A DNA stretch of 64,000 bases from Nitrospirota bacterium (GTDB lineage: Bacteria > Nitrospirota > Thermodesulfovibrionia > Thermodesulfovibrionales > Dissulfurispiraceae). The notes below the pieces were generated by a model, which did not search any database, was not told the DNA's origin, and was given only the letters and a program-made list of their open reading frames with translations. The stretch is from positions 62,001 through 126,000 of the forward strand of contig JAMCVZ010000068.1 in assembly GCA_023476565.1 (NCBI GenBank), given 5' to 3'. The translations under genes and the position numbers were made by a program. Positions 23,491 to 31,183 of this stretch are shown piece after piece. How positions within the stretch are numbered: the stretch's first letter is position 1; every line of letters starts with the position of its first letter.

Positions 23491-24381
23491 ATGAAGGTCG
23501 AATGGTCAAATTTCTGCCTGGATTTCGATAAAAGAACTTACCTCATGGGGGTGCTCAATATCACCCCCGATTCTTTTTCGGACGGGGGTCTTTTTTTTGA
23601 TCGGGAGAAGGCTGTCGGACATGCCTTGAAGCTTGTCGAAGACGGCGCCGATATTCTGGACATTGGCGGTGAGTCCACAAGGCCGGGTTCGGAAACGGTC
23701 TCTGTCGAAGAGGAGATACGGCGTACCGTACCGGTAATCGAGGCTGTCTCCAAAAAAATAAACGTCCCTATTTCTATCGATACCTACAAAGCCGAGGTTG
23801 CACGGCGTGCCCTTGATGCGGGCGCATCCATCATAAATGATATAAGCGGCCTGAGATTCGATCGTGAGCTGCCGAAGGTCGCTGCCGAGTATAAGGCGCC
23901 TCTTATTGTTATGCACATCAAGGGAAGGCCGAAGGATATGCAGCAGAATCCCGTATATGAAGCGCTTATTCCCGAAGTTATGGATTATCTGAGGATCAGC
24001 GTTCAGCTTGCCGTGAAATTCGGTATCCCCGATGATAGGATCATCATTGACCCCGGCATCGGTTTTGGAAAGACCTTTAATCACAACCTGGAGATCATAA
24101 GGAATCTCAGGGAATTCACTCTCATGGGGAAGCCTGTTGCCGTAGGGGTATCGAGAAAGGCATTTATAGGCAAGGTCCTTGGCGGGGCCCCGGCTTCAGA
24201 CAGGCTGGAAGGCACTGCAGCGGCTGTTGCGATCTCGATCTTTAACGGCGCGCATATCATACGTGTGCATGACGTCAAAGAGATGGCAAGGGTGGCAAAG
24301 GTGGCGGATGCGATAATAAAAGGGTTCAAAATTACCTCCTCAGATGGAACGGAACGCTTGTCGATACCACTCCCCTCTTGA
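23491..24381 (+). CDS. folP: dihydropteroate synthase
   Basis: Condenses p-aminobenzoate with the pterin pyrophosphate in folate synthesis. It has 296 residues, with MGVLNITPDSFSDGG, DIGGESTRPGS, SIDTYKAEVARRALDAGA, NDISGL and DPGIGFGKTFNHN, all diagnostic. It follows ftsH, a common order in bacteria. The 3' end overlaps the convergent transporter gene by 50 bases. Confidence 0.96.
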   Translation: MKVEWSNFCLDFDKRTYLMGVLNITPDSFSDGGLFFDREKAVGHALKLVEDGADILDIGGESTRPGSETVSVEEEIRRTVPVIEAVSKKINVPISIDTYKAEVARRALDAGASIINDISGLRFDRELPKVAAEYKAPLIVMHIKGRPKDMQQNPVYEALIPEVMDYLRISVQLAVKFGIPDDRIIIDPGIGFGKTFNHNLEIIRNLREFTLMGKPVAVGVSRKAFIGKVLGGAPASDRLEGTAAAVAISIFNGAHIIRVHDVKEMARVAKVADAIIKGFKITSSDGTERLSIPLPS

Positions 24382-26146
24382 AGAGCAGGATACCTTTGAT
24401 GAAGAGCGCCGTCTGGTTGTGAAGCAGGTGGTGCCACCACCGTGAGGGCACAAACTCGGGAAGTATAACGGTAATGACCCCTTCCGGATATTTGTTGCGG
24501 ACCTCGTCTATGTAATCGATGAGCGGCTCTATTACGGAGCGGTACGGAGAATCGAGGATGATGAGCGGGACGCCCATGCAGAGTCTGTCCCACTTGGTCT
24601 TTATCTTCTCTGTCTCCACGGGATCGAGACAGACATATACGGCAACAACATCGTTGGAAAGCGCCTTTGCATATTTAATGGCATTGATCACGGCCTGTTG
24701 TATTCCCGACACGGGAATAACCACCGAGTGGTGCATATATTCCTTTGCCGCGGGTTCGCATGCAGTAACCGAGAGTTGTTCGGCGATGGCTATGTAGTGC
24801 TGGTGCACCTTCCGGGTCAGCCAGACCAGTACGGGAATGGCGATAAGGACCATCCACGCGCCGTGAGAGAATTTTTCGGTCGCGATTACGACGAGAACGA
24901 TTGCTGTCGTGATCGTACCGATGCCGTTTATCATCATCCCTTTGAGCCACCCTTTGCCTTTATAGGTAAGCCAATGCCTTACCATTCCGGCCTGGGAGAG
25001 GGTAAAGGCGGTGAAGACACCGACAGCATAAAGAGGAATAAGGGCGTGGGTATCGCCGCTGAACATCACAATCAGCAGTGCCGAGAGAAATCCGAGTATG
25101 AGGATACCGTTTGAAAACACGAGCTTATCCCCGCGGTTGCTTAACTGCCGTGGCAGATAGCGGTCGGCTGCCATGATCGAAGAAAGCCTCGGGAAATCGG
25201 CGAACGAGGTGTTAGCGGCAAGGATAAGTATCAGGGATGTCGAAAACTGGATTGTGTAGTAAATGGGGCCTTTTGAAAATATAATCCTTGCAAGCTGTGA
25301 GAGTACGGTCTCATTTTCTTTCGGCAGTATCCCGAAGTGGTCTGCAAAAACGGCTATGCCGATGGTGAGCACGCCGAGTATTACCGCCATCCATACGAGG
25401 GTTATGCCGGCATTCTTTGCTTCCGGCGCCTTGAATGCCCTTACCCCGTTTGACACTGCCTCTATTCCGGTGAGGGTCGCGCAGCCTGAGGCGAATGCCT
25501 TCAAAATAATGAACAGCGACAGCATGTTTGTGGTCGATGTTTTGTATTCAAAGAAGACCGGATGAGACGGGGAAAAGGATTTTGTGAACCCCACCGCTAT
25601 AAGAAGGAGCAGGCCCCCTACGAAGAGATATACAGGAATCGAAAAGACCCTCCCCGACTCTCTTACGCCGCGCAGATTGATTACCATGACAAGTATTATG
25701 GCGAGAAGGCACATAGTGACCGTATGGCTCACGAGTCCCGGGAACGCCGATGTGATCGCCGCTATGCCGGCGGAGATACTGACTGTAACGGTGAGGACAT
25801 AATCGATGAGCAGTGCGGCGCCGGCGACAAGCCCGGGGTATGTGCCGAGGTTTTCTTTTGCAACGATGTATGCTCCGCCCCCTGAGGGGTAAGCATGGAT
25901 GGTCTGGAAATATGACGTGGCAACGATTGCAATAAGAATGACAATGCTGATGGCGATAGGCACGGAATAATGCATGAATGCGGTCCCCCCCGCAGCGAGC
26001 GCGAGGAGTATTTCCTCAGGTCCGTAAGCCACGGAGGAGAGGGCGTCCGATGAGAATACTGCAAGACCCATGGTTTTTGTGAGACGCTCGTGTTTTTCCT
26101 TTACAGTTTCGATAGGGCTGCCGATGAGAATACGTTTGAGCGACAT
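24332..26146 (-). CDS. KimA-type potassium importer (APC superfamily)
   Basis: 604 residues from ATG 26146 (MSLKRILIGSPIETVKEKHE), with GGAGGAAG just upstream. Twelve or so membrane segments carry family motifs such as LAVFSSDALSSVAYGPEEIL, AYPSGGGAYIVAKENLG and FASGCATLTGIEAVSNGVRAF. A cytoplasmic C-terminal universal-stress-protein-like domain follows. Near its end come PEFVPSRWWHHLLHNQTALF and VPFHLRR. The resemblance to Bacillus KimA (YdaO) is close over the whole length. The riboswitch upstream supports the same role: high-affinity potassium uptake switched off by c-di-AMP. Confidence 0.88.
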   Translation of the reverse strand: MSLKRILIGSPIETVKEKHERLTKTMGLAVFSSDALSSVAYGPEEILLALAAGGTAFMHYSVPIAISIVILIAIVATSYFQTIHAYPSGGGAYIVAKENLGTYPGLVAGAALLIDYVLTVTVSISAGIAAITSAFPGLVSHTVTMCLLAIILVMVINLRGVRESGRVFSIPVYLFVGGLLLLIAVGFTKSFSPSHPVFFEYKTSTTNMLSLFIILKAFASGCATLTGIEAVSNGVRAFKAPEAKNAGITLVWMAVILGVLTIGIAVFADHFGILPKENETVLSQLARIIFSKGPIYYTIQFSTSLILILAANTSFADFPRLSSIMAADRYLPRQLSNRGDKLVFSNGILILGFLSALLIVMFSGDTHALIPLYAVGVFTAFTLSQAGMVRHWLTYKGKGWLKGMMINGIGTITTAIVLVVIATEKFSHGAWMVLIAIPVLVWLTRKVHQHYIAIAEQLSVTACEPAAKEYMHHSVVIPVSGIQQAVINAIKYAKALSNDVVAVYVCLDPVETEKIKTKWDRLCMGVPLIILDSPYRSVIEPLIDYIDEVRNKYPEGVITVILPEFVPSRWWHHLLHNQTALFIKGILLFKRGVVSTSVPFHLRR

Positions 26147-26180
26147 GACTTCCTCCCCAGGAGGGCACGACGGAGGAGAA

Positions 26181-26209
26181 AATAAAAAACCGCCGGCACT
26201 GCAGCGGTT
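26181..26209 (-). terminator. intrinsic terminator between riboswitch and transporter gene
   Basis: On the minus strand AACCGC pairs with GCGGTT and is followed by TTTTTTATTTT. It lies after the riboswitch and before the ribosome-binding site, the right place for ligand-controlled termination. Confidence 0.75.
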
Positions 26210-26234
26210 CCGTTTCTCTGCCTGTTGCCCTTCC

Positions 26235-26370
26235 ATATGCCTACGAGGTTAGCTGTCGGGCTCGGGCCTGGAAGTGCCCTATCCTTGAGATCAAGGAATA
26301 CGCCCCATAATCTGGGTCCCCCGCATCCATTCTCACCCTATGGTTGGGAATGGATCTCGGCTGCTATGTA
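26235..26370 (-). promoter_or_regulatory. c-di-AMP (ydaO/yuaA) riboswitch
   Basis: The minus-strand leader contains GCAGCCGAGATCC at its 5' side, GGGGGACCC and GGGGCGTATTCC in the middle. Near the 3' side it has CCCGACAGCTAACC, then TCGTAGGC, the signature end of the ydaO class. The order and spacing agree with the known aptamer. An intrinsic terminator follows at once, then a KimA-type potassium transporter gene, the classic target. Binding of c-di-AMP would be expected to favour termination. Confidence 0.88.
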
Positions 26371-26424
26371 ATTCATACTTTAATACGAGCAGGAGGAATT
26401 GTCAACAGAATTTGACATTGTTGA

Positions 26425-27160: not shown

Positions 27161-28360
27161 ATGAGGTATTATCTTTCCGGCACATGCGTCCTGAAATGGC
27201 TCGAATTGCCCGCTGTCTACGACATTGATAAAGACGAGCTCTACGAGCTTGATGGAGAGGCCTTCGGACTCTTGAGAAGATGTGCGGAGCCCGGGGGGTG
27301 CGCAGCAGGACCAGAGGACAGGGAGTTTATAGATTACTGCCTTTCCGAAGGGATACTGACTTCAGAAGTTTCTTCTGTTAAAAGACCTCCCCTGTCGAGG
27401 TCCCCTGTCCCCTCCCTCAGATATCTTGAGCTCCAGATTACGGACAGGTGCAATCTGAAATGCAGGCACTGTTATATAGATCAACCGGAACATAACGAGC
27501 TTTCCATCCGGGAAATAGAAAAAATCTTGAACGAATTTGAAGAGCTGCAGGGGCTCCGTCTTTTGATAACCGGAGGCGAACCGCTTGCCCATAGCCGTTT
27601 CGAGGAGGTTAATGCTTTGTTGCCCGGATATCGCTTCAGGAAGATACTGTTCACAAACGGCCTGTTATTGAACAGGAAGCGCCTGGAAGCGCTCACTATG
27701 GATGAGATCCAGTTCAGCGTTGACGGCCTCGATCACGGCCACGATGCGCTCAGGGGAAAAGGCACCTGGAGAATGGTGATGCGGAAAATAGAGGAATCGC
27801 TTGCAGCGGGCATTGCCGTATCCGTAGCCACCATGGTCCACAGGGAGAACCTCGATGAGTTCGGGGAAATGGAAGCCCTGTTTAAAAAGATCGGTATCAG
27901 GGATTGGACCGTGGATGTGCCGTGCATTACCGGGCATCTGAAGGATAACCCGCTTTTTCAGGTGCGGCCTGATGAAGCGGGGGGCTACCTGAACTACGGG
28001 TTCGGCGGCGGCCTTCACGGGGGGGGCGAAGGATATGCCTGCGGCCTTCACCTGTCATCCGTACTTGCGAACGGCGATATATGCAAATGCGCCTTTTATG
28101 CGCAATCGCCTGCAGGCACTATTAAAGACGGGTTGAGGAATTGCCGGGCGAATATAAGGCCGGTGAGGCTGGATGAACTGGAGTGCGCCGGATTGTCATG
28201 CCGGGTCATAGACTCATGCAGGGGGGGATGCAGGTTCAGGGCAGAGCGTGCCCCGAAAGGATCTTGTGCGGAAGGCGCCGGAAATATCCTGGGGAGAGAT
28301 ATTTACAAATGCTACGGGTATGGTATAATGGAGTTACCCGGGCATGAAGCTCAGGATTAG
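27161..28360 (+). CDS. radical SAM/SPASM peptide-maturase-like protein
   Basis: 399 residues. Residues 1-70 (CVLKWLELPAVYDIDKDELY, LDGEAFGLLRRC, CLSEGIL) look like a PqqD-type winged-helix that binds a precursor peptide. The radical SAM core follows, with C97-x3-C101-x2-C104 in TDRCNLKCRHCYIDQ and LLITGGEPL. The C-terminal part has a SPASM-like cysteine set (YACGLHLSSVLANGDICKC, GLSCRVIDSCRGGCRFR, YKCYGYG) for auxiliary clusters. A 20-codon Cys-rich gene follows 24 bases after the stop, before a terminator. This is the layout of a maturase with its substrate. It may belong to the 'geopeptide' type known from Geobacter; I cannot verify that here. Confidence 0.85.
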   Translation: MRYYLSGTCVLKWLELPAVYDIDKDELYELDGEAFGLLRRCAEPGGCAAGPEDREFIDYCLSEGILTSEVSSVKRPPLSRSPVPSLRYLELQITDRCNLKCRHCYIDQPEHNELSIREIEKILNEFEELQGLRLLITGGEPLAHSRFEEVNALLPGYRFRKILFTNGLLLNRKRLEALTMDEIQFSVDGLDHGHDALRGKGTWRMVMRKIEESLAAGIAVSVATMVHRENLDEFGEMEALFKKIGIRDWTVDVPCITGHLKDNPLFQVRPDEAGGYLNYGFGGGLHGGGEGYACGLHLSSVLANGDICKCAFYAQSPAGTIKDGLRNCRANIRPVRLDELECAGLSCRVIDSCRGGCRFRAERAPKGSCAEGAGNILGRDIYKCYGYGIMELPGHEAQD

Positions 28361-28384
28361 CCCCTGGAAAGGGAGGTGTTGGGA

Positions 28385-28447
28385 ATGGTCATAAAAAAGG
28401 TTTCGAAGAAAGCAGCAACCACCTGCAAGTGCAAAGGTTCTTGCTAA
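28385..28447 (+). CDS. 20-residue Cys-rich peptide, candidate RiPP precursor
   Basis: ATG 28385 is preceded by GGGAGG at 28370 or so and reads MVIKKVSKKAAT, then TCKCKGSC and TAA. The peptide is a basic leader-like stretch with a three-cysteine tail ending in Cys. It sits between the radical SAM/SPASM gene and a strong terminator, so both genes share one transcript. By analogy with SPASM systems the tail could be cross-linked (thioether) by the enzyme; that is inference. A frame this short can arise by chance, but position, ribosome-binding site and composition argue for a gene. Confidence 0.7.
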   Translation: MVIKKVSKKAATTCKCKGSC

Positions 28448-28482
28448 ACTTTTAATCTGTATTCTTACCAATAACGTGTGGA

Positions 28483-28511
28483 GGGGGCCCATCAGGGCCC
28501 CCGTTTGTTTT
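28483..28511 (+). terminator. strong intrinsic terminator after the peptide gene
   Basis: GGGGGCCC, loop ATCA, GGGCCCCC, then GTTTGTTTTCC. The eight-base GC stem closes the radical SAM-peptide transcript. Confidence 0.85.
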
Positions 28512-28548: not shown

Positions 28549-30276
28549 ATGCCATTGAGAATTACAGCATACTGTATCCTTACCTGTCTCCTTGCCGCTT
28601 CATGTATAACCCCTCATAAGCAGGTTGCCGGTATTCAAGAACAGGGCAGGGATGAACTGTCTCCCAATGCCGGGAGTGCATATCTTGAGTATATGCTCGG
28701 CTACGAGCTTGAGCGCGAAGGCAAATGGGAAGATGCCCTGAACCGTTACCTTAACGCCCTCACGCTTGATCCGACCTCGCTTTATCTGAAGACACAGGTG
28801 AGCGCCATGCTTGTCAGATTGGGGAAGGCGCCCGAGGCCCTGTCAAACCTGGAAGAGATTATAAAGGCCGATCCGGATTACGTGCCTGCCCTCATGCTGC
28901 TCGGCGACCTGTATAACAATCAGAAGAGAGTGGATGATGCCATAAGAATATACGGGCATATCCTGAGAATAGATCCCGGCAGGGATGAAGCCAGAATGGC
29001 CCTGGGCGTCTTTTACTCATCGAAGGGTGAGCTTCAGAAGTCCCGGGACGTCTTCGATGATGTTTTGAAAAAGGATCCTGACAATATAATGGCGCTTTAT
29101 TATCTGGGCACTATCAACATTGAAACGAAGAATTATGACAAGGCCGAAAGCCTGTTTAAAAGGATCATAGAGCTCCGCCCGTCCTTTGACGCCTCCTATC
29201 TCAGCATAGGGCTTGTCGATGAGCTGAAAGGCGACTCCAAAGGCGCTGAAGAATATTACCGGAAAACCCTTGCAATAAACCCTCACAACTTATTTGCAAA
29301 AGAAAAAATCATACAACTGTACCTCGCGGAGAAGTCTTACGACAAGGCGATCAAGGAGCTCGAATCGGTTCTGGAGAGTTCGCCTGACAATATCGATATA
29401 CGCGCACGGATCGGTCTTCTGTACCTTCAGGAAAGGCAGTATGATAAAGCCCTTTCCGAATTCAAAACAGCGCTTGAGACAAAACCGGATGATATCGCCT
29501 TGAGGTATTATGCGGTCCTTGCGCTGGAAGAGCTGAACAGATATGGTGAGGCTATAGAAGAATTGAAAAAGATACTGTCCCATGATCCCAAAAATATAAA
29601 CGCGTTTCTAACCCTGGCGCTTATCTATTCAAAACAGAACCTTTACGCGGATGCCGCCAGGATATACGAGGAAGTGTTGAGTTTTGAAAAAGGCAAGCCC
29701 GAGATTTACAGCTATCTCGGGGATATGTATATACAGATCAAGGATTTCAAGAAGGCTGAACGTGTCTTAGGAGAAGGGCTCAGACTGTTCGGCAATAATG
29801 CCGATTTAACCTTCGCTATGGCCATCCTCTATGATAAAGCGGGCAGACCCGAAGACATGGAGTCATATCTCAGACAGACTATCAAGCTCAATCCGAAGCA
29901 TGTTGACGCTTTGAATTATCTCGGCTACAGCTTTGCTGAAAAAGGTGTACACCTCCAGGAGGCGCTGTCCCTGATCAAAAGGGCCCTGGAACTAAAGCCC
30001 GACAGCGGATACATAATGGACAGCCTCGGCTGGGTGTACTACAAGCTCGGCAGATTGAAAGAGGCATTGGAAACCCTTCGCAAGGCCGTGAAATTAACCA
30101 GGGATGACCCTGTGCTCCACGAGCACCTCGGCGATGTCTATGCGGCGCTCGGAGAGCCCGGGAACGCTGTTGACGCCTGGAGCGAGGCGCTCAAGTCCCA
30201 TGAGAAAGAGGAAGGATTGAAAGCGAGGGTGGAGGGAAAGATTAAAAATTTAAAAGTTGAAGTGCAGAACAAATGA
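28549..30276 (+). CDS. TPR-repeat lipoprotein
   Basis: 575 residues. The N-terminus is a lipoprotein signal (ILTCLLAASC, with the Cys after LAAS). The rest is a chain of about 14 tetratricopeptide repeats, with units such as ALMLLGDLYNNQKRVDDAIR, ALSEFKTALETKPDDIALRY and ALETLRKAVKLTRDDPV. It is probably an outer-membrane-anchored scaffold, like PilF/PilW-type or YfgC-adjacent proteins; no binding partner is evident. It is 28 bases upstream of ispE, which may be cotranscribed. Confidence 0.85.
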   Translation: MPLRITAYCILTCLLAASCITPHKQVAGIQEQGRDELSPNAGSAYLEYMLGYELEREGKWEDALNRYLNALTLDPTSLYLKTQVSAMLVRLGKAPEALSNLEEIIKADPDYVPALMLLGDLYNNQKRVDDAIRIYGHILRIDPGRDEARMALGVFYSSKGELQKSRDVFDDVLKKDPDNIMALYYLGTINIETKNYDKAESLFKRIIELRPSFDASYLSIGLVDELKGDSKGAEEYYRKTLAINPHNLFAKEKIIQLYLAEKSYDKAIKELESVLESSPDNIDIRARIGLLYLQERQYDKALSEFKTALETKPDDIALRYYAVLALEELNRYGEAIEELKKILSHDPKNINAFLTLALIYSKQNLYADAARIYEEVLSFEKGKPEIYSYLGDMYIQIKDFKKAERVLGEGLRLFGNNADLTFAMAILYDKAGRPEDMESYLRQTIKLNPKHVDALNYLGYSFAEKGVHLQEALSLIKRALELKPDSGYIMDSLGWVYYKLGRLKEALETLRKAVKLTRDDPVLHEHLGDVYAALGEPGNAVDAWSEALKSHEKEEGLKARVEGKIKNLKVEVQNK

Positions 30277-30304
30277 AGCCCGCGCTTCGATTTTTTAAAT
30301 TTTC

Positions 30305-31183
30305 ATGTTCACGTTAAAAGCGCCGGCCAAAATAAACTGGTCGCTTTATGTCCTGAATAAAAGGGCCGACGGCTACCACAATATACTTTCCCTGATGCAC
30401 TGTATAGGGCTTTATGATACCCTTGCTTTTGAGCAGGCCGATTCCATCGAACTTGTTTCGGATATGGACATCCCGGAAGAGCAGAATCTTGTTCTCAAAG
30501 CTGCCGGGATGCTCCGGAACTACGCAGGGGTAAAAGAGGGGGCCCGGATTGCCCTCAAAAAGGATATCCCTTCCGGGGCGGGACTCGGGGGAGGGAGCAG
30601 CGATGCCGCATGCGCCCTGACGGGGTTGAACAGACTCTGGGGTCTTGGACTGGGCAACAATGAGTTGAGCTCGATCGGAAGCAGGCTCGGATCCGATGTC
30701 CCTTTTTTCTTTCACTGCCCCCTGGCTGTTGCTGAAGGAAGAGGGGAGGCGCTCACTCCCCTGGCGGTTGATAACCCTTATACCTTGCTGCTGGTGAAAC
30801 CCGCGGTATCAATATCGACTCAATGGGCCTACGGGAAAATAAAGGCGAGCCGTGGGGCAGCGGAGGAATTGACAAAATCTGTTAATAATATTAATAATAT
30901 CCAGTTCATTTATGGAGCCCTTAAAGCGGGTAATATCTTCAGTCTTAAGTCTTTAATCCATAATGACTTTGAAAATGCCGTAACGGAAGAGTATCCCGTG
31001 ATCGGCAGTTTAAAAGAAAATTTGCTGGAATGCGGGGCGGTGCTCTCTGCCATGAGCGGAAGCGGCTCGGTTGTTTTCGGTCTCTTTGAGGACAGGGGCA
31101 AGGCATTGAGCGCCTCCGGACATTTTTCTTTGTACTTCAACAGAGTAGTAGAGACACTAACGACAGTAACGAGCCAAAGATAA
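30305..31183 (+). CDS. ispE: 4-diphosphocytidyl-2-C-methyl-D-erythritol kinase
   Basis: GHMP kinase of the non-mevalonate isoprenoid pathway. It has 292 residues, with KAPAKINWSLYVLNKRADGYH, the ATP loop IPSGAGLGGGSSDAAC, SDVPFFFHCP and MSGSGSVVFGLF. The last codons (TLTTVTSQR) are encoded by the start of a hairpin repeat that continues past the stop. It lies upstream of tRNA-Gln and prs, a common order. Confidence 0.95.
   Translation: MFTLKAPAKINWSLYVLNKRADGYHNILSLMHCIGLYDTLAFEQADSIELVSDMDIPEEQNLVLKAAGMLRNYAGVKEGARIALKKDIPSGAGLGGGSSDAACALTGLNRLWGLGLGNNELSSIGSRLGSDVPFFFHCPLAVAEGRGEALTPLAVDNPYTLLLVKPAVSISTQWAYGKIKASRGAAEELTKSVNNINNIQFIYGALKAGNIFSLKSLIHNDFENAVTEEYPVIGSLKENLLECGAVLSAMSGSGSVVFGLFEDRGKALSASGHFSLYFNRVVETLTTVTSQR

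Follow-up and report, generated by a model that had tools for sequence, protein, structure and literature searches.

On the forward strand of the window, by which we mean the whole 64,000-nucleotide stretch of Nitrospirota DNA that was analysed, positions 27161-28360 encode a 399-residue radical SAM/SPASM maturase, an assignment supported by a Pfam match, by homologues and by the predicted fold. A Pfam search of the protein returns a single domain, Radical_SAM (PF04055, E = 1.3e-20), which was likewise matched in all 66 of the homologues compared; the Pfam SPASM model was matched in only six of these. The CxxxCxxC motif of the SAM-binding [4Fe-4S] cluster (C97, C101 and C104; 27449-27472) and the SPASM region (C294, C310, C342, C347, C353, C357 and C384; 28040-28312) contain three and seven cysteines, respectively, that are invariant throughout the 66 homologues, bearing out an initial sequence-only reading that had assigned both cysteine sets to the enzyme. 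The seven SPASM cysteines are presumably all that two auxiliary clusters require.

The nearest PDB folds to an AlphaFold2 model of the maturase (pLDDT 93.5) are SkfB, CteB and SuiB, all of them RiPP maturases; SkfB ranks first both by fold (TM 0.57-0.60) and in a PDB profile search. In this model, residues 1-67 (27161-27361) are predicted to form strands followed by two helices, an arrangement that, together with fold matches, marks the region as a putative RRE/PqqD-like domain. Neither Pfam nor PDB profile searches detected an RRE or PqqD domain in the maturase by sequence; the PqqD domain that had been proposed from the letters alone is thus compatible with the predicted fold, even though it is undetectable by either sequence search. 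In a fusion built for modelling only, which reads in frame through the stop codon of the enzyme and the linker and on into the peptide, the IKK of the peptide is predicted as a strand at low confidence.

Downstream of the enzyme gene and on the same strand, a Shine-Dalgarno ribosome-binding site (AAAGGGAGGTG, 28368-28378) precedes a 63-bp frame (28385-28447) for a candidate precursor peptide of 20 residues, MVIKKVSKKAATTCKCKGSC, which is conserved in enzyme-positive genomes and matches no Pfam or NCBIfam model. This product comprises a leader-like half, M-x-I-[KR]-K-V-x-[KR]-K-x(3) (28385-28420), and a core-like half, TCKCKGSC (28421-28444). An intrinsic terminator, GGGGGCCC-ATCA-GGGCCCCC and then GTTTGTTTTC, follows on the same strand at 28483-28511; its stem (28483-28502) has G-C in eight of eight pairs and is succeeded by a T-rich tail. 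The 20-codon frame, with its own ribosome-binding site and situated between enzyme and terminator, therefore exists as first described. Beyond it lie a gene for a TPR protein (28549-30276) and ispE (30305-31183). On the opposite strand of the window, a c-di-AMP riboswitch (Rfam RF00379, 88.3 bits; 26223-26372) precedes a large permease-like gene (24332-26236, also on the minus strand).

Distribution and conservation of the enzyme-peptide pair

Of the 176 genomes of the order, 119 have a homologue of the maturase (E ≤ 1e-25), essentially in single copy; three genomes from other orders of the same class also carry one, and further homologues occur in other classes of the phylum Nitrospirota. Scores of full-length members mostly exceed 450 bits, whereas those of other radical SAM proteins reach 117 bits at most, a wide gap indicating that the family is well delimited. 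The named public records matched in one contig scan were all Nitrospirae/Nitrospiraceae MAGs, and a plasmid search at 1e-15 returned no homologue.

Inspection of 130 homologous loci for a peptide frame behind the enzyme, the check that the sequence-only reading had called for, revealed one near the enzyme stop in 80, as a frame of 19-20 codons with a strong Shine-Dalgarno sequence. These linked frames lie within about 190 nt behind the stop, with two of them running into it for anything from a few bases to some tens, and a purine-rich, strong Shine-Dalgarno sequence precedes almost every homologous peptide frame. A motif-blind test, which accepted any Shine-Dalgarno-preceded frame of 12-30 residues within 200 nt behind the enzyme, was applied to the 122 loci with enough sequence; such a frame was present in 80 of them, and 76 of the 80 end in CKCKxSC. 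Across 79 linked peptides, I3, C14, K15, C16, K17, S19 and C20 are invariant with varying codons, and T13 (77/79), K5 (76/79) and [KR]8 (78/79) are nearly so. The consensus of the peptide family, which includes the unlinked and variant members, is M-x-I-[KR]-K-V-x-[KR]-K-x(3)-T-C-K-C-[KH]-x-S-C-stop, with K at position 17 in the linked frames. The pN/pS ratio is about 0.05 in the core, a biased value because the search was defined by that motif; for the leader, which lay outside the search pattern, it is about 0.35. Synonymous changes thus greatly exceed replacements, and the 20 codons are under purifying selection, as the original proposal demanded.

The pair recurs in other classes of Nitrospirota, with a CKCKESC version of the peptide found in one family. 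Variant precursors ending in CKCHSSC occur at L231-L234 (genomes G036, G041 and G042), and take the forms MKIKKVTKGKALTCKCHSSC and MTIKKITKKKALTCKCHSSC in two of the three genomes of genus g21. The presence of both CKCKGSC and CKCHSSC copies in G036 indicates that divergence at one lysine is possible within this family of peptides, and the change of K17 to histidine makes this residue unlikely as an obligatory acceptor of modification. T13 (nearly), K15 and S19 remain invariant candidate acceptors beside the three cysteines.

A whole-genome search for the CKCKxSC-stop pattern gave 127 matches in 124 of the 176 genomes of the order, as compared to four matches for the reversed control pattern. 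When the comparison is confined to genomes with completeness of at least 90%, both enzyme and peptide occur in 91, neither occurs in 31, the enzyme alone in four and the peptide alone in three (odds ratio 235; Fisher 4e-22), counts that take no account of shared ancestry. One of the enzyme-only cases, G168, has a contig that stops 87 bp behind the enzyme; the other three belong to genus g21, in which G041 and G042 hold the CKCHSSC variant and G039 yielded no detected peptide frame. The three genomes with a peptide and no detected enzyme (G097, G138 and G148) are nearly complete; for G097 and G138, at 99-100% completeness, the enzyme gene may fall in an assembly gap, or the peptide may be retained alone. 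The G148 assembly contains a tandem pair of precursor genes (L166, G148:C26:6031-7599), each with a TTTACA-TATAAT promoter. Six genera (g35, g42, g45, g68, g73 and g75) each include genomes with both genes and genomes with neither (completeness at least 88%), and this joint absence within mixed genera indicates that the association is not just a matter of one clade. Judged by eye, the distribution of the pair parallels neither that of COX1 (aerobic respiration) nor that of dsrA (sulfite reduction), the latter scoring over its cut-off in 154 of 176 genomes, pair-less ones included.

Promoter signals and genomic setting of the peptide gene

At loci with a linked peptide, a near-consensus, extended -10 promoter signal lies within the final codons of the enzyme; the candidate promoter in the window (28302-28329, forward strand) reads TTTACA-16 nt-TATAAT with an extended -10 (TGG) and matches at 11 of 12 positions. 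At this site, 87% of 75 linked loci carry a signal of at least 9/12; the corresponding shares are 13% for dinucleotide shuffles and 10% for 50 loci with no peptide found nearby. In 44 of 46 linked loci, the isoleucine within the -10 box is encoded by ATA, as compared to a share of 37% gene-wide (binomial 6e-17). These statistics are indicative, since the sequences are related and so not independent. TATAAT is kept despite a different reading frame (L032, L070) or a longer enzyme tail (L054, L080, L088), and at L083 it is retained after the stop codon; L055, an apparent unlinked exception with a promoter, is a locus truncated by a contig end. Peptide genes that are unlinked to the enzyme show a promoter of at least 9/12 in 24 of 43 cases, versus 17% of shuffles. 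The conservation of this internal promoter suggests that the peptide is probably made from a short transcript of its own, rather than only sharing that of the enzyme, and is probably made in excess of the enzyme; the single transcript ending at 28511 that had been envisaged is accordingly doubtful.

In several lineages the peptide gene lies away from the enzyme gene, with the pair still being kept. An unlinked peptide is often found just upstream of the genes for the TPR protein and ispE, as in the window, and otherwise sits between quite different genes. The placement upstream of a TPR-protein-ispE operon is seen at L148-L151, L161, L168, L172, L173, L175-L177, L185 and L187, as well as in the window (28549-31183), and recurs even when the maturase is encoded elsewhere. 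The neighbours of the enzyme vary by lineage; the genes encountered around the pair include the TPR protein-ispE-prs group and, by inspection, KGOR, rubrerythrin, SOD, HD-GYP, TatC and cytochromes. Comparison of gene neighbourhoods across lineages identified no constant third gene, be it an exporter, a peptidase or any other, and a functional partner could not be assigned from neighbours that are lineage-specific and mostly housekeeping. That no protease or exporter gene adjoins the pair, as observed at the outset for the window, extends to the other lineages, where none recurs beside it.

Relation to named peptide-modifying systems

The layout had been likened to geopeptide systems, with which it shares a two-gene arrangement, a radical SAM/SPASM enzyme and a short cysteine-containing precursor. 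Against the geopeptide model TIGR04280, however, the maturase scores 27.8 bits where the cut-off is 400, and the same genome encodes a true geopeptide maturase on another contig (G000:C14:48408-49694; L227, 1489-2787, minus strand) that scores about 571-572.8 bits. This second enzyme adjoins an unrelated, 30-residue, CC-containing putative precursor, MEIIVLDCGIDVEELAGTLACCDSTAGAVV (L227, 2861-2953, minus strand), a type unlike the peptide in the window. The proposed resemblance therefore fails, and, similar as a short cysteine frame next to a radical SAM/SPASM gene may look, we reject membership of the pair in the geopeptide family.

Within NCBIfam, the maturase falls under every cut-off. Its top match, WgkB (NF050035), is also a peptide maturase, but the score is 85.6 bits against a cut-off of 650 and the alignment covers only the radical SAM core. 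SCIFF (TIGR03974, cut-off 425 bits) and the PapB-type ranthipeptide model (NF047865, cut-off 340 bits) are not among the best 25 NCBIfam matches, a list that ends at 49.8 bits. SCIFF/CteB-ScfB and PapB-type systems likewise join a radical SAM/SPASM enzyme to a small cysteine-containing precursor, and CteB resembles the window maturase in having an N-terminal peptide-binding domain; the SCIFF precursor differs in containing six cysteines in about 45 residues, as opposed to three at the extreme C-terminus of a 20-mer. SCIFF is widely conserved and housekeeping-like. The sactipeptide maturases SkfB, AlbA and StsB are represented by the best fold match, SkfB, yet identity is about 19%, the precursor is unrelated and the window pair has no exporter or immunity genes. 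In the PQQ (PqqA/PqqE) and mycofactocin (MftA/MftC) systems, a radical SAM/SPASM enzyme also acts on a highly conserved short precursor, at whose C-terminus the mycofactocin chemistry occurs; the pair described here is distinguished from them by the absence of partner enzymes nearby and by a CKCKxSC core in place of E-Y or V-Y.

Searches of one literature collection returned no paper containing CKCKSSC or CKCKGSC, none naming geopeptide and none joining Thermodesulfovibrio with radical SAM RiPPs, and neither the NCBIfam models nor the literature found names the maturase-peptide family. The locus does display three general attributes of radical SAM/SPASM RiPP systems, namely the CxxxCxxC motif, the SPASM cysteines and a conserved precursor under purifying selection. 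The pair resembles a minimal system of this kind and is outside every named family tested.

Candidate functions of the pair

Taken as a whole, we read the locus as a minimal RiPP-type pair of Nitrospirota, comprising a maturase and its precursor, and assign this reading a probability of about 0.78. Linkage, co-occurrence, selection, Fe-S anatomy and the kinship of the fold to RiPP maturases all strongly favour the two-gene RiPP system originally put forward, from which the geopeptide likeness has to be removed. The precursor would be a strongly expressed, stand-alone 20-mer whose basic, beta-strand-like leader (xIKKVxKK) would bind the RRE-like N-terminal domain of the enzyme and thereby present the peptide as its substrate; a 5'-deoxyadenosyl radical, together with the auxiliary Fe-S clusters, may then modify the core TCKCKxSC-stop, most likely by joining at least one invariant cysteine sulfur to a neighbouring residue. 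We place the chance that the core undergoes such thioether chemistry a little short of even. Counting against the maturase-precursor reading are the three peptide-only genomes, an N-terminal domain that lacks an RRE match in sequence, and the K17H variant, by which one core lysine is not essential.

Short frames of this kind are common in principle, and one could have arisen by chance behind a radical SAM gene; the excess of pattern matches over the reversed control reduces this prospect to a negligible one. What chance does give is apparent in viral contigs, where none of 29 motif matches has the leader, and these matches were set aside as fortuitous. A short frame rich in cysteine and lysine codons near a terminator, as in the window, also calls to mind a leader peptide for attenuation of the adjacent gene. 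Such a role is very improbable, because the downstream gene is not constant and has the opposite orientation in many loci, the peptide is kept at unrelated places and its leader half is conserved at the amino-acid level; the changing downstream context in itself largely rules it out.

Two further alternatives retain a function for the peptide as such. The enzyme might really act on some other molecule, with the peptide assisting it as a small accessory subunit or an allosteric partner, which would agree with the occurrence of mostly one copy of each gene per genome, with extreme conservation and with joint loss; the peptide gene, however, often has a strong promoter of its own, as expected of a substrate in excess, and the nearest folds act on peptides, so that we find this explanation improbable. 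The peptide could similarly be a regulator, not a substrate, of the enzyme. Alternatively, the three cysteines (CxCxxxC) might serve as sulfur carriers or as ligands of a metal or a small Fe-S cluster, with the enzyme making only a minor modification that is needed for this role, for example at the C-terminal cysteine. The invariant cysteine spacing, the location of the last cysteine at the very end and the replacement of lysine by histidine at position 17 all fit a ligand role, and we treat this thiol or metal-site peptide as possible, if on the unlikely side. It is compatible with the maturase-precursor reading, from which it is inseparable here, and no tie to sulfite reduction supports it, since dsrA occurs nearly throughout the order.

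Within the maturase-precursor reading, three features suggest that the product is no antibiotic but has a conserved role inside the cell, such as that of a cofactor or of a metal or redox ligand: a core that does not vary, inheritance in single copy and the absence of any partner gene for export, immunity or proteolysis. The more specific proposal that the modified CKCKxSC peptide is a novel peptide-derived cofactor or metal/redox ligand, kept across much of Nitrospirota for core metabolism, is a tentative one, in which the pair would parallel PQQ and mycofactocin, except that two genes suffice here. To our knowledge, RiPP cores are mostly fast-varying and confined to small clades, with phylum-wide near-constancy being restricted to cofactor-type RiPPs. 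An unannotated 20-codon gene, of a kind that gene callers miss, is found to be inherited in single copy, to be coupled to its own strong promoter and a radical SAM enzyme, and to be lost jointly with that enzyme, which makes it a promising place to look for a molecule of basic cellular importance; with the motif and the list of genomes in hand, the pair is directly testable in cultured relatives.
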